Source: Drouetiella hepatica Uher 2000/2452
Lineage (GTDB): Bacteria; Cyanobacteriota; Cyanobacteriia; Elainellales; Elainellaceae
Direction of reading: 5' to 3'
Assembly: GCA_019359505.1 (NCBI GenBank)
Contig: JAHHHD010000035.1
Span: 1-53,641 of the forward strand
Length of the DNA stretch: 53,641 bases
Positions 14,879 to 18,805 of the stretch are shown in pieces; positions within the stretch are counted from its first letter, which is position 1; every line of letters starts with the position of its first letter. A program made the translations under genes and the position numbers. The notes under the pieces are model-generated. The model was not told the DNA's origin. It was given only the letters and a program-made list of their open reading frames with translations, and did no database searches.

Positions 14879-15832
14879 TCATTTTTGAAGTAAATCGGTG
14901 ACGGCATTGATCACAATTTGCGCTGAGCCAACGAAAAAGTCTCGATCGATCGTCTCTAATCTATCGCTAGGCTGGTGGTAGTGGGGGTTGCGAAAGTTGG
15001 CGGTATCGGTCAGCAAGACCGCGCCAATGCCTTTTTTCCAGAAGGGCGTGTGGTCACTGCGAACCAGATCGGGCGCGAGTCCGCTCAGGGTGGGAATAGA
15101 GAGGGTTAAAACTTGAGGCAGATTTCCCCTCCCGGCTTGGCTCAAGCTTTGGGTTAGGTCGGGATGCCCCTGATCGCCAATCGCCGCTAAAAATTCCCCT
15201 TTGTCTACAGGTGGCTTGATGGGCAAAGGCGGATAGGTCTGGCATCCTGCTGTACGGCAGGTGTAGCCAATCATGTCCATAATCATGGCTCCTTGAATCA
15301 GGTCGGGCTGGAGCGTTTCGACAAAGGCTTGGCTGCCGAGCAGCCCCTCTTCCTCTAAGTCGAAAAAGGCAAGCTGGAGCGATCGAGGTGTCGGGTTTTG
15401 CCCTAACAACCTTGCTGCTGCCAGCACCGCCGCTACTCCTGTGGCGTTGTCGTCAGCTCCAGGAGAAAGCGCAATCGTATCGTAGTGTGCCCCCAGCAAA
15501 ATTGCGCCCAACTGCGGATTAGTGCCCGATCGCTCTGCCAGAATATTAATGCCGCTCAAGCCCTGAGCTTGAAACTCCTGGAGCTTCGGTGTCCATCCGG
15601 CGCTCTGCAATTCTTGCATGATGTAATCGCGAGCTTTCTGCCGATCGCTTTCCTCAAATCGCTTGAAGGACAGAGCTTCGACATCTGCCCACAGCTTTTG
15701 GCTATCGACAGCAGGTGGAGCAACTTGCGGATATTCAGCTGCGGCAGGCGATCGCGGATTGACCTGATGCCACCCTACAAGAATGCTGAGGATTGCAGCT
15801 AGGAGAATTAAGAGGAGCGATCGGGGTTTCAT
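14879..15832 (-). CDS. Secreted M28-family zinc aminopeptidase
   Basis: A 317-residue peptidase with an N-terminal hydrophobic signal or anchor (about 5-22). M28 metal ligands are recognisable: His in LLGAHYDTIA, the bridging Asp in PGADDNATGVAA, the catalytic Glu/ligand pair in FDLEEEGLLGS, Asp in AMIMDMIGY, and the last His in RSDHTPFWKKG. These fit a dinuclear zinc exopeptidase acting on peptides outside the cytoplasmic membrane. Length is near the family norm. It is the last gene of a leftward series, 60 bases after the ParB-like gene, but its function does not suggest a link to that pair. Confidence 0.9.
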   Translation of the reverse strand: MKPRSLLLILLAAILSILVGWHQVNPRSPAAAEYPQVAPPAVDSQKLWADVEALSFKRFEESDRQKARDYIMQELQSAGWTPKLQEFQAQGLSGINILAERSGTNPQLGAILLGAHYDTIALSPGADDNATGVAAVLAAARLLGQNPTPRSLQLAFFDLEEEGLLGSQAFVETLQPDLIQGAMIMDMIGYTCRTAGCQTYPPLPIKPPVDKGEFLAAIGDQGHPDLTQSLSQAGRGNLPQVLTLSIPTLSGLAPDLVRSDHTPFWKKGIGAVLLTDTANFRNPHYHQPSDRLETIDRDFFVGSAQIVINAVTDLLQK

Positions 15833-15892
15833 CGCTGGCTTTTCTGAGTCAGGTGTGTTTTCACAGGCTTAACTTTCTAGAGGATCGTGTAC

Positions 15893-16798
15893 TCAAATTT
15901 CTCCAATTTGTTTGAGGCGATCGAGTGTTCCTTGAGCAAATCCTGGAATTTTATGTGCAGTACCTGATTTTGTCGATCGCTCCAAATTTTCCCAAGTTAG
16001 CGTTTTTCCTGGCTGATTCCAGTAAGCGATCGCTTTGAGAGCAGCTTCAATCTGTTTCGGTTGAGTAACTACCTGACTCAAAAGATTCGTAATTTCTTGT
16101 TCGCTAGCAGTCAAAAGATTAGTTTTAATTCCATTGAAGGAAGTCAAAGCTTTTGCTCGTGAACCTGTTGATTTCAAACCAACAGACTCTATCTGTTCTC
16201 GTAATTGATTGATTTGGGTTGAGAGTTCCGGTATTTCAGAAAAACTGTCAGTTAGACGATCTAAGCCATAGTGAAGGGTCTTGAGCTTATCATCAAAGGC
16301 TTCTTTGAATTTATCTAGAGATGCGGCTAGAACTTGCTTAATTGAATTGGCAGTTGACTGTAGCTTGCGATCGATCATCTGTTCAAGATCAGCAGAGTCA
16401 ACGGGATGCTGTTCACCACTATCTGGCACAGAGATTGACGAACTGAACAATTGAGACAATTCCGCCTTGGCGGCTAAAGCTTGCTCATCTGTCATATCAA
16501 AAACCCAAGCCCACAGCATCTCAATATCGAGCTTTTGTGCAACTTGCAACCACTCAGCGCCATAAACTAGCTCATACTCAATATCATCGCCATAGCTTTC
16601 GGTACGGCGCAAGATCAGCGAGGCTAAATTGCTCTGATGTTGTAAAAGGCTACTCTCAATAGCTTGCGATCGCTCCAGAGAAATTTCTTGCTTTCCAGGA
16701 TCGGGAAGAGCAATTTGAAAAGTATAAACTTTCCCATGATTGATGGGAATGATTCCCAGATTTTTGCTAATTAGTTCGCGCCGAATTTCCTGACTCAT
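15893..16798 (-). CDS. ParB-like partner of the nuclease-ParA protein
   Basis: About 301 residues from the ATG at 16798, which has AGGAG eight bases upstream; an in-frame ATG at 16825 lies inside the previous gene and lacks such a site. The first 120 residues resemble ParB N-terminal domains of cyanobacterial plasmid and chromosome partition proteins (LILRRTESYGDDIEYELVYG, then LWAWVFDMTDEQALAAKAEL). A coiled or helical middle (about 130-215) follows, then a C-terminal region (about 220-300) with repeated short helices (FNGIKTNLLTAS, IPGFAQGTLDRLKQIGEI) that may bind nucleic acid. No classic ParB helix-turn-helix was seen. It sits 13 bases after the nuclease-ParA stop, so the two are almost surely co-translated. 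Confidence 0.75.
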   Translation of the reverse strand: MSQEIRRELISKNLGIIPINHGKVYTFQIALPDPGKQEISLERSQAIESSLLQHQSNLASLILRRTESYGDDIEYELVYGAEWLQVAQKLDIEMLWAWVFDMTDEQALAAKAELSQLFSSSISVPDSGEQHPVDSADLEQMIDRKLQSTANSIKQVLAASLDKFKEAFDDKLKTLHYGLDRLTDSFSEIPELSTQINQLREQIESVGLKSTGSRAKALTSFNGIKTNLLTASEQEITNLLSQVVTQPKQIEAALKAIAYWNQPGKTLTWENLERSTKSGTAHKIPGFAQGTLDRLKQIGEI

Positions 16799-16811
16799 AT
16801 AATAGCTCCTG

Positions 16812-18278
16812 CTAAATACTACCAACTAAATGGGAGGCAAGATTGTCATATCTCTCCAGAGCTTTTTGAGCAGCTTCACGCTCTTGAGAACTTAGATGAT
16901 CATCGAACTCAGCCTCTTGGATGGGATAGCCTTTCTCTGGACATTGCGAGACAATATTGAGCCTAGGAATCCAAGTTTGTTCAGGAAAAATATTAACCTG
17001 ACTGCCACCAGCAGTTTTCTCCAAAATGTCTTTTAATTTCTCTAACATGGAGAGATTAAAACTATTCGATCGCTGATCATACATACTAATAGCAACTCCC
17101 AAAATAGGCAGTGGATCATCTTTATAGGCTCCGATCTCCTGAGCCTGAGCAAGAACATACTCTAGAGCGCGAATAGGATAGGATGAGAGCTGAGTGGGAA
17201 CCAAAATGCCGTTAGATGCCATCAGAGAAATCCGATTGACTTTACCGAAAGAAGGGGGTGGATCGATGAAAACGAAGTCATAGTCATGATTCCTTAGCTT
17301 TTTTGCTAGGACGCGATCGCTATCTACCATTTGGGTCAAATCATTTTCCATTCGACTCAGACGAATGTGAGAAGGAATCACATCAAGCTGAAGATCATTG
17401 CGACTCCAACGCTTTGCGTAGATTACGTCTTCTAACTTAACCCTAGGATCAATCAATAGATGCGTAATGTCTTTTTTTCTAGCAAGTTCTACGTCGTTTA
17501 ATGGATCAATGCCTAAGCCAGTCGATAAGTTCGCTTGGGCATCAATATCAATTAGCAAAACACGCTTGCCGAGCTGTGCCAATGATGCTGCAAGGTTAAT
17601 CGTTAAAGTTGTCTTGCCAACCCCACCTTTATTATTGAAGACTGTGATAATCATTGATTTACTTCTCCTTTGAACCAGATTAAATTGCTTCTGTAAAGGC
17701 TGAGGACTTAGCTCTAGCTGTTCTTCAAATAAAGCAGGTATGCTTTGACTGCCAAAGGCTTCGGCAACCCGCATTAAAAACTTCTGATTGATACGCTGCT
17801 GATTATTTAAGATTACATTGCATACCTTTAGACAGGTTGTTTTGCAAAGCAAATGGTGAAATAGCTTAACGTTTTCAACTAATTCACGGACTGAATAGTT
17901 TGCAATAACAACAATCCGATCTTGATGTCTACAGAGTAGCTGAAAGCTGGAGCCATTGGTAAGCAGCCCCAGCATCGCGCCTACTTTACGCATATACCGA
18001 TTGATTTGCCAGCCGTTTTGATTGATTGGCTTACCCGGTGCCTTAACCTCAATTACCAAAAACGGAGGGCAGTGGAGCTTAAATTCTTCAGGATAGATGA
18101 GAAAATCAAGCTTTGAACTGCCTATACTGACCTGCGATCGCCAGTCTTCACTGTCATATCCTAGCCACTGTAATAGAGGCACAATAATTTTATGCTCTAC
18201 TTCCGCCTCGCTGCTCTCTGGGGTGATCGACTTTAGGAATTTTAGGTTCGAGGAGTCATCTGAGGGGGAGATGGGCAT
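16812..18278 (-). CDS. Fusion of an HsdR-type nuclease domain to a ParA ATPase
   Basis: A 488-residue two-part protein. Residues about 20-165 match the type I restriction HsdR N-terminal (PD-(D/E)xK) fold: EVEHKIIVPLLQWLGYD, the catalytic-type Asp in SSKLDFLIY, ExK in FLVIEVKAPG, and a Q...Y...LLTNG element. Residues 209-488 are a ParA/MinD-type ATPase: deviant Walker A KGGVGKTT, the DIDAQANLS element, and FIDPPPSFG. Nuclease metal-site residues look intact. An internal ATG at 17654 (Met209), exactly at the ParA start, has AGGAG ten bases upstream, so a free ParA may also be made. A ParB-like gene follows at once. Possible roles: plasmid-derived partition with a guard nuclease, or defence; neither is shown by the sequence. 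Confidence 0.85.
   Translation of the reverse strand: MPISPSDDSSNLKFLKSITPESSEAEVEHKIIVPLLQWLGYDSEDWRSQVSIGSSKLDFLIYPEEFKLHCPPFLVIEVKAPGKPINQNGWQINRYMRKVGAMLGLLTNGSSFQLLCRHQDRIVVIANYSVRELVENVKLFHHLLCKTTCLKVCNVILNNQQRINQKFLMRVAEAFGSQSIPALFEEQLELSPQPLQKQFNLVQRRSKSMIITVFNNKGGVGKTTLTINLAASLAQLGKRVLLIDIDAQANLSTGLGIDPLNDVELARKKDITHLLIDPRVKLEDVIYAKRWSRNDLQLDVIPSHIRLSRMENDLTQMVDSDRVLAKKLRNHDYDFVFIDPPPSFGKVNRISLMASNGILVPTQLSSYPIRALEYVLAQAQEIGAYKDDPLPILGVAISMYDQRSNSFNLSMLEKLKDILEKTAGGSQVNIFPEQTWIPRLNIVSQCPEKGYPIQEAEFDDHLSSQEREAAQKALERYDNLASHLVGSI
17654..17669 (-). promoter_or_regulatory. Internal ribosome binding site and start for a free ParA product
   Basis: On the minus strand AAAGGAGAAG precedes an in-frame ATG (17652-17654) coding MIITVFNNKGGVGKTT, the natural first residues of a ParA protein. 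The spacing from AGGAG to ATG is ten bases. This suggests that a nuclease-less ParA can be translated from the same message. Confidence 0.55.
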
Positions 18279-18333
18279 TAGCAGAATTAACTCGTTCCGG
18301 CATTTGAGTCGCGTTTCTACTTTAGCGAATTAA

Positions 18334-18786
18334 CTAACTTTTCACCCATCCATCGGATCGCTTCAAGACCGCCATATCTTCTGCATCTAGCTCGACGGGT
18401 ACGCCGCTGCGGATCAGCTCGGCAAAGTCTTCGTTAGGAACCATGATGCACAGAGCATAAAGGCGACCGTCGCCCGTGTTTTCAATGCCGTGGGTGCCTG
18501 TGGGCGGGACAAGAATGCTGTCACCTGCCTGGATAGGCACAATTTTTCCGTCGCAGTTGGCGATGCCCTCGCCCTTAAGGACAAAGAACATTTCTACGGC
18601 AAGCTGATGGCGGTTGGGGGGCGTTTTGCCGCCTTTATCAAAAATCTCGACGCAGTAAGTCAGCGACATATTAGCTACCACTGGATCAAAGACGATTGCC
18701 AGTCGATTAGTGTCTTTTGGGCTGATGCGGTATGCCTGGTAGTCTTTGGGAGTCTTGATTACTGGAATGACGCAGGTCGTGTCCAT
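18334..18786 (-). CDS. Cupin-domain protein
   Basis: A 150-residue single-domain cupin. Motif 1 is modified (GGKTPPNRHQLAVEMFFVLKG: one His and the Glu are clear, the first His of HxH is replaced), and motif 2 is normal (GDSILVPPTGTHGIENTG with its His). A metal site with fewer than four protein ligands is likely. The fold is used by dioxygenases, isomerases and sensors, so no reaction can be assigned. It starts 19 bases after the isochorismatase-fold gene stop, so they are surely co-transcribed and may act on the same small molecule. Confidence 0.83.
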   Translation of the reverse strand: MDTTCVIPVIKTPKDYQAYRISPKDTNRLAIVFDPVVANMSLTYCVEIFDKGGKTPPNRHQLAVEMFFVLKGEGIANCDGKIVPIQAGDSILVPPTGTHGIENTGDGRLYALCIMVPNEDFAELIRSGVPVELDAEDMAVLKRSDGWVKS

Positions 18787-18805
18787 CGGAATCTCCGTTA
18801 AAGGT

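Follow-up and report, generated by a model that had tools for sequence, protein, structure and literature searches.

A widespread and apparently undescribed variant of ParA/ParB-type systems was found in cyanobacteria, in which a ParA ATPase carries a predicted HsdR_N-type PD-(D/E)xK nuclease domain in the same polypeptide. One copy lies in the window, the stretch of 53,641 nucleotides that was analyzed here. Its sequence reveals a predicted fusion with intact nuclease and ATPase motifs, a linked partner gene for a putative ParB-fold protein, recurrence of the unit in cyanobacteria and an internal start codon; the nuclease activity and the biological role of the module are what we infer. The reading that we favor, with our confidence evenly balanced between acceptance and doubt, is a ParAB-type module, chromosomal in the relatives, in which a DNA-bound ParA would carry an ATP-gated, HsdR-like nuclease and in which free ParA is probably made as well.

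Identification of a Nuclease-Like Domain Fused to ParA

The original prediction described one gene joining a PD-(D/E)xK module to a complete ParA, followed after 13 bases by a ParB-like gene. This arrangement was confirmed: both Pfam matches lie in one ORF on the minus strand, which the original prediction had not named, and the partner ORF starts behind a gap of that length (Table 1). The plus-strand translation of 16812-18278, by comparison, is riddled with stops. In the Pfam search HSDR_N_2 (PF13588) was matched at residues 26-116 (E 4e-7, 30.5 bits, cut-off 25) and AAA_31/ParA at residues 210-384 (E 1e-43), and no helicase family was found on the fusion at E up to 1. Failure of the N-terminal region to match HsdR_N/PD-(D/E)xK profiles had been named as a possible refutation; with HSDR_N_2 the region does match one.

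The AlphaFold2 model of the fusion has a mean pLDDT of 84.3, with the linker 185-205 below 50. Its residues 206-488 resemble the ParA/Soj entry 9a6n, itself an integrative model, with a Z score of 33.2, and the ParA part resembles the ParA/Soj structure 8ray with Z 31.9 (rmsd 2.1, 250 aligned). The McdA structure 6non, at Z 28.8, ranks below these ParA/Soj entries. The matches to ParA/Soj structures and to AAA_31 bear out the completeness of the ParA. As a predicted gene product, the HsdR_N-ParA fusion is real and recurrent and its anatomy is firm. A chance fusion or a sequencing artefact was ruled out, since many genomes have the same fusion with its motifs intact.

Table 1. Features of the fused gene and the adjoining partner gene in the window.
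Feature	Coordinates	Strand	Basis or details
Fusion gene, 488 aa	16812-18278	minus	single ORF read from 18278 down to 16812
Domain order: HsdR_N-type PD-(D/E)xK domain, linker, ParA ATPase		minus	
N-terminal nuclease-like domain, residues 1-184	17727-18278	minus	HSDR_N_2 E 4e-7; 2e-7 within own genome
Predicted active-site residues	18042-18209	minus	E24 18209-18207, D58 18107-18105, E77 18050-18048, K79 18044-18042
QxxxY motif (Q91, Y95)	17994-18008	minus	joint alignment
ParA ATPase domain, residues 209-488	16815-17654	minus	AAA_31 E 1e-43 and structure matches
Deviant Walker A KGGVGKTT, residues 217-224	17607-17630	minus	G221, K222 in 77/77 rows
In-frame ATG, Met209, predicted second start for free ParA	17652-17654	minus	
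Shine-Dalgarno-like AAAGGAG	17665-17671	minus	10-base spacing before internal ATG
Partner gene, 301 aa: ParB-fold domain, coiled coil, small helical C-terminal domain	15893-16798	minus	
13-base intergenic gap	16799-16811	minus	holds the partner's Shine-Dalgarno-like AGGAG, 16810-16806
Partner ParB N-terminal fold, residues 20-122	16433-16741	minus	structure match 7bnr
Partner predicted coiled coil, residues 135-205	16184-16396	minus	AlphaFold2 helices 135-186, 188-205
Partner C-terminal domain, residues 225-301	15896-16126	minus	no Pfam name

Conservation of the Predicted Active Site

A joint alignment of 77 rows was established from 73 fused and four unfused proteins. The incomplete copies L036 and L037 and the split copies L051, L056 and L058 are left out of it, a few of its rows are near-copies or derive from one genome reached twice, and the row of L029 has a cut ParA. 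The predicted active-site residues E24, D58, E77 and K79 are kept in all 73 fused rows, of which 44 belong to clade A, 28 to clade B and one to a phage contig. Not one of the 73 fused rows aligned holds a fused-but-dead nuclease copy, and the four unfused relatives (L032, L085-L087) are without the whole nuclease domain. This all-or-none state of the active site, either intact or absent together with its domain, argues that cutting would matter, and the loss of the domain in the free forms argues that it may be optional on a working ParA-partner core.

A further motif is QxxxY, a name used for HsdR/RecB-type nucleases. Q91 was found in 44/44 fused rows of clade A, and R or K stands there in all 28 fused rows of clade B. 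Y95 is present in the 72 fused rows of both clades, and a T is aligned with it in the phage row. Compared with the sequences of solved structures, the nuclease domain gave weak matches to BpuSI (E 0.072) and to the type I R subunit 3h1t (E 0.89); a structure search with the full fusion model returned a list filled by ParA matches. By its profile and by the catalytic D and ExK, the N-terminal domain is a putative PD-(D/E)xK nuclease of HsdR_N type, for which cutting is predicted. In the ParA part, G221, K222, D244, D246 and D339 are invariant across the 77 rows aligned.

Some copies are damaged. In Scytolyngbya (L036/L057) a decayed copy has lost most of ParA, and the nuclease domain and the partner are still there. 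The clade B copies L051 and L056 are each interrupted close to the beginning of the ParA part and occupy two frames, owing to a natural split, decay or sequencing error.

Distribution and Phylogeny

Patterns built from the window fusion, which reach close relatives only, were scanned against the GTDB species genomes and detected 36 loci, whose titles are all cyanobacterial. Full-length fusions make up 32 of them, and the remaining loci are the free ParA L032 and the incomplete copies L029, L036 and L037. Scytonema NIES-4073 and Calothrix NIES-4101 are among the strains detected. In a survey of 386 cyanobacterial genomes, full-length fusions were detected in 51, none of which stands in both clade lists. 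Clade A accounts for 14 genomes with a full-length fusion by profile A2 and additionally for G295, whose locus L098 shows both domains, and clade B for 36 by profile A3; the two clades are ~33% identical. Seven more genomes (G147, G149, G283, G285, G301, G359, G404) gave a match to the ParA part only, in frames of ~458 aa. A different N-domain in one genus, considered from a profile match to 187-473 only, proved wrong for L083 and L084, which come from two of these seven genomes and both have the N-domain.

In a quick tree with midpoint root and flagged long outgroup branches, clade A lies on one side of a branch with SH-aLRT 99, and clade B together with free forms on another (99). The free ParAs nest within the fused clades, L032 inside A and both L086 and L085/L087 inside B, and the starred branches require at least two changes in clade B. 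Judged from this nesting, the bare ParAs are best read as putative losses of the nuclease domain, every one still with its partner. The phage copy L102 sits on a long, unsure branch.

The original prediction had named as a refutation that the fusion is well known on plasmids. This is not so: a search of 72,556 plasmid records returned no place with 80% cover of the clade A fusion (E limit 1e-20) and no match to the clade A partner (E limit 1e-3) or to one clade B fusion (E limit 1e-30). A known plasmid-borne fusion was not found among these records. Among 50,697 phage records, too, no match reached 80% cover for the fusion of either clade. One IMG/VR contig of 58 kb encodes a third, divergent version, a 447-aa HsdR_N-ParA and then a 227-aa protein with ParB_N and Rho_N, and the contig also matches integrase, portal, tail and endolysin. 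This phage-contig pair (L102, G433:C1:13657-15680) is distant from the two chromosomal clades. In several relatives of clades A and B the unit lies on a megabase contig and is thus chromosomal there; the window's own contig has 53.6 kb.

A second ParA/MinD-type gene, ~294-333 aa in length where measured and mostly divergent upstream, lies near the fusion at L006, L015-L018, L023, L068, L069, L073, L081, L089, L091 and L094.

A Predicted Second Start for Free ParA

An in-frame ATG behind a strong ribosome site had been taken in the original prediction as the natural N-terminus of ParA and hence as a possible second start. AAAGGAG and ATG are indeed located as described, and the free clade B-type ParAs L085-L087 begin exactly at the matching Met. 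Residue 209 is Met in 43 of the 44 fused clade A rows and also in the free L032; the sole exception within clade A is L060 with the codon ATT. At the matching site of clade B, one residue earlier in the alignment, 22 of 25 rows have ATG and three have GTG, where L050/L063 represent one genome, as do L049/L064, and L082-L084 are not included. The phage version L102 has no start codon at this site. In the fused rows compared, a standard start codon is absent from this position in L060 and L102.

A Shine-Dalgarno match of at least 5 bases precedes the site in 18 of 40 clade A genes, compared to 5.2 expected from synonymous codons, and this count was reached in none of 1000 simulations. Among 304 other internal Met codons such a match occurs in 5.3%. 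The table of 40 genes is without L010 and L032 and also without L096-L098; these last three were missed by the motif filter and were added for the offset and cluster analyses. In the offset scan, 19 of 43 genes matched at the internal site compared to 1 or 2 of 43 at upstream offsets of 4 to 14 codons, the control being restricted to -4 to -14 codons. Counts are high elsewhere too, with 14/43 at -2, +4 and +6 codons and 26/43 at +12. The -2 offset overlaps the same site, and the downstream peaks are read as anti-SD-like letters of the conserved ParA start.

With sequences grouped at 90% identity, the excess at 5 or more bases stays (15.0 of 38 clusters, 5.3 expected). It is gone in single-linkage clusters at 65% (1.1 of 13, 1.0 expected), in which a 4-base excess remains (6.8 of 13, 3.0 expected). 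In clade B, 3 of 25 rows matched at 5 bases against 2.0 expected, which is not significant, and 13 of 25 at 4 bases against 6.7. Because the 5-base excess vanishes at 65% clustering, the strong predicted Shine-Dalgarno site is a trait of the window's lineage, a cluster of 25 sequences of which not every member has it. As a universal feature it was ruled out. Of the second start as originally proposed, the predicted start codon holds in the relatives, whereas the strong Shine-Dalgarno site is limited to this lineage.

Matches of at least 5 bases were found at 15 of 31 partner starts compared to 0 of 33 fused-gene starts, the starts being chosen by rule. The corresponding scores in the window are 0 for the fused start (no match of at least 4 bases), 6 for the internal start and 5 for the partner. 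The codons that make up the site vary within the lineage, with Q-R-R in the window and K-E-E in Scytonema and Nostoc, and this variation favors selection at the RNA level. Taken alone, an invariant Met is weaker evidence, because it adjoins an invariant protein block. A search for an internal promoter for free ParA gave 3 promoter-like sites, compared to 5.3 in shuffles (sd 2.8). In the window's lineage, free ParA is probably also made from the predicted internal start.

The ParB-Fold Partner

The AlphaFold2 model of the partner has a mean pLDDT of 81.7 and a pTM of 0.38. Its N-terminal part resembles ParB of M. xanthus (7bnr) with Z 13.7, rmsd 2.0 and 95 aligned residues. This fold came from structure comparison; the profile search against PDB sequences gave mainly coiled coils. 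The window partner itself has no Pfam domain above cut-off, ParB_N included, and ParB_N was matched in 25 of 33 members of the partner family (E up to 0.05). In hhalign comparisons with four ParBs of the same genome, the GERR site aligns to GAEW in clade A or GHLE in clade B, and the GERRxR (Box II) motif is absent in the partners of both clades. Passages of two papers describe the GERR motif as needed for CTP binding in ParB (PMC7333895, PMC12207404). A ParB-like CTP-clamp cycle is therefore unlikely for a partner without GERRxR. The designation as ParB-like holds for the N-terminal fold and for the ParB_N profile in relatives; a canonical ParB the partner is not, its GERR being replaced.

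No HTH was detected among the 25 commonest Pfam families of the 33 partners (43 rarer families apart), and the parS search near the genes (15700-18800) found short, imperfect repeats only. The C-termini of the 33 partners matched Rho_N (11), SAP (4), HHH_3 (3) and HeH (2), where matches may overlap. Six of the seven clade B partners aligned were scanned; L052 matches HHH_3 with E 1e-12, and the rest showed weak or no HhH. The C-terminal domain of the window partner is a further type without a Pfam name, modelled in 10-residue blocks at pLDDT 92-97.

Co-occurrence of the fusion and the ParB-like gene across genomes, a check proposed together with the original prediction, was evident in both clades. 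The partner adjoins 48 of 50 clade A loci, some of which share a genome and two of which have a free or decayed ParA, and it is present at all 25 clade B survey loci L063-L087 (22 fused, 3 free ParA). The two clade A exceptions are the full-length fusion L059 and L029, which is incomplete and close to the end of its contig. Any other neighbor family occurs in at most 11 of the 50 clade A loci. At L010:8304-9392 a second partner paralogue lies directly downstream of the first, and at the clade B locus L070:4021-4503 a fragment of a clade A-type partner (51% identity over ~108 aa) was found at the end of the fetched stretch.

Genomic Neighborhood

For the flanking regions, taken without a matched control set, 104 of 122 listed ORFs were scanned. 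Among these 104 proteins, matches at E 1e-15 were found to 46 PADLOC families, no family being matched by more than one flank, so that no recurrent defence family was seen in the scanned flanks. Metabolic functions dominate the Pfam families of the flanks (25 of 100 shown), among which two Uma2 putative endonucleases and five ParA-type (AAA_31) proteins also occur. On the fusion PADLOC had no system-specific model, the best match being PDC-M28B over 43 ParA residues (E 7e-9), and for the partner none either, LmuB being matched with E 0.013 across the coiled coil. A known defence system was ruled out, as neither protein has a specific PADLOC match. For a defence-island setting no pattern was seen in the 104 flanks, with single PADLOC matches only.

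Proposed Mechanism and Alternative Explanations

In its ATP form, ParA is a dimer that binds DNA non-specifically, and ParB proteins induce it to hydrolyse the nucleotide; pairwise action is common among PD-(D/E)xK nucleases. In the mechanism that we propose, the ParA part in its ATP state would dimerise on non-specific DNA, and the dimer would bring two nuclease domains together there. The small C-terminal domain of the partner would hold DNA and its N-terminal part would touch ParA, driving ATP hydrolysis and release and resetting the fusion. Nuclease activity would thus be coupled to the ATP cycle of ParA and to the position of the partner. In the window's lineage, the fusion would be mixed with free ParA from the internal start, by which the nuclease could be diluted or gated. 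The most likely role is the handling or policing of intracellular DNA, be it entangled, damaged or foreign, and not a simple partition of sister copies. The guarded partition or defence system offered with the original prediction is likewise a proposal only. The loss of the nuclease domain in L032 and L085-L087, with ParA and partner staying, counts against the reading that we favor. So do the vanishing of the 5-base Shine-Dalgarno excess at 65% clustering and its lack of significance in clade B, the full-length fusion L059 with no partner next to it, the partner's missing GERRxR, and the lack of a specific PADLOC match for either protein or of a defence family recurring in the scanned flanks.

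Survival of ParA and partner without the N-domain in several lineages would be expected of an ordinary chromosomal partition or positioning module, in which HsdR_N is an extra DNA-binding or regulatory N-domain, as in other long ParAs. The IncC protein of RK2, whose N-terminal domain modulates DNA binding and dimerisation in the account given in part of PMC2666795, points the same way. However, the four catalytic positions are kept in 73/73 fused rows, which mere DNA binding need not preserve, and the partner is without GERRxR and without an HTH among its commonest Pfam matches; we regard this explanation as rather unlikely. A stand-alone anti-phage or anti-plasmid defence, whose partner senses or loads on invader DNA, whose ParA-nuclease cuts and whose free ParA is the brake, is an unlikely alternative to which the patchy spread over 51 of 386 genomes, the varied sites with few shared neighbors and the combination of nuclease, NTPase and DNA-binding type partner would be suited. 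It is opposed by the scatter of the 46 PADLOC families over 104 flanks, one flank each and with no control flanks, by the mostly metabolic Pfam families shown for the flanks (25 of 100, two Uma2), by the phage contig having its own version and by PADLOC matches of the fusion that are weak and confined to the ParA region.

This 58-kb IMG/VR contig, with its phage gene matches and its divergent HsdR_N-ParA and ParB_N-Rho_N, would rather suggest a domesticated partition and exclusion unit of a phage or mobile element, which still stabilises or excludes related elements. The position of several clade A and B copies on megabase contigs, the lack of a plasmid record matching either clade over its length and the long, unsure branch of the phage copy make such an origin decidedly unlikely. 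Highly improbable is a cargo-positioning pair like McdAB of carboxysomes, which has no DNA target. Cyanobacteria use such pairs and the ParA part does resemble McdA (6non, Z 28.8), but ParA/Soj matches better (8ray, Z 31.9), the partner has a ParB fold and its relatives carry modules of DNA-binding type, and a nuclease domain would be without obvious use on a protein cargo.

ParA/ParB machines move DNA, and nucleases destroy it. Beyond the ATP-gated nuclease on a DNA-bound ParA that we favor, it is possible, and put forward here tentatively, that the module represents a new class of DNA-handling machine, in which ParA dimerisation on DNA would switch on a paired PD-(D/E)xK nuclease, a ParB-fold partner with exchangeable tails for DNA binding would steer it, and two ParA forms translated from the same gene, one armed with the nuclease and one bare, would tune it. 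If true, chromosome-segregation machinery would be directly linked to DNA cutting in cyanobacteria. The all-or-none pattern of the active site makes the nuclease role testable by simple point changes.

Comparison with Known Systems

In searches of open-licence papers for the fusion and for cyanobacterial ParABS, no description of the HsdR_N-ParA fusion or of its partner was found in the passages covered, and the portions retrieved of PMC12839542, PMC7159879, PMC10853773, PMC5512222, PMC1913061 and PMC10241942 do not describe them. A survey of ParB-CTPase-fold fusions (PMC12704722, PNAS 2025) names, in its section 7, the DUF3850 fusion alone as consistently beside parA. The fusions described there are similar to the present partner in that a ParB fold is joined to lineage-specific domains, whereas an HhH/Rho_N partner beside a nuclease-ParA is not mentioned in section 7 of that survey.

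With ParABS (Soj-Spo0J) the module shares the ParA fold, the deviant Walker A, the ParB N-terminal fold in the partner and the gene order parA-parB. It differs in that ParA carries a putative nuclease domain, that the partner is without GERRxR or a common HTH match, that no clear parS was seen near the genes and that the relatives of the partner have C-termini of Rho_N/SAP/HhH type or of a type without a name. The HsdR subunit of type I restriction is comparable in its HSDR_N_2 domain with D and ExK and, in clade A, in QxxxY; the motor in the fusion polypeptide, however, is ParA and not a helicase.

RK2 IncC is similar as a ParA with an N-terminal extension, and according to part of PMC2666795 it occurs in two forms, IncC1 and IncC2, by alternative starts 'for as yet unknown reasons', a precedent for the predicted pair of fusion and free ParA. 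In the same portion of that source the IncC N-terminal domain is described as a modulator of oligomerisation and DNA binding and not as a nuclease, in contrast to the HsdR_N PD-(D/E)xK domain predicted here. The kept internal start makes the question of the two ParA forms raised by RK2 IncC testable in a second, unrelated system.
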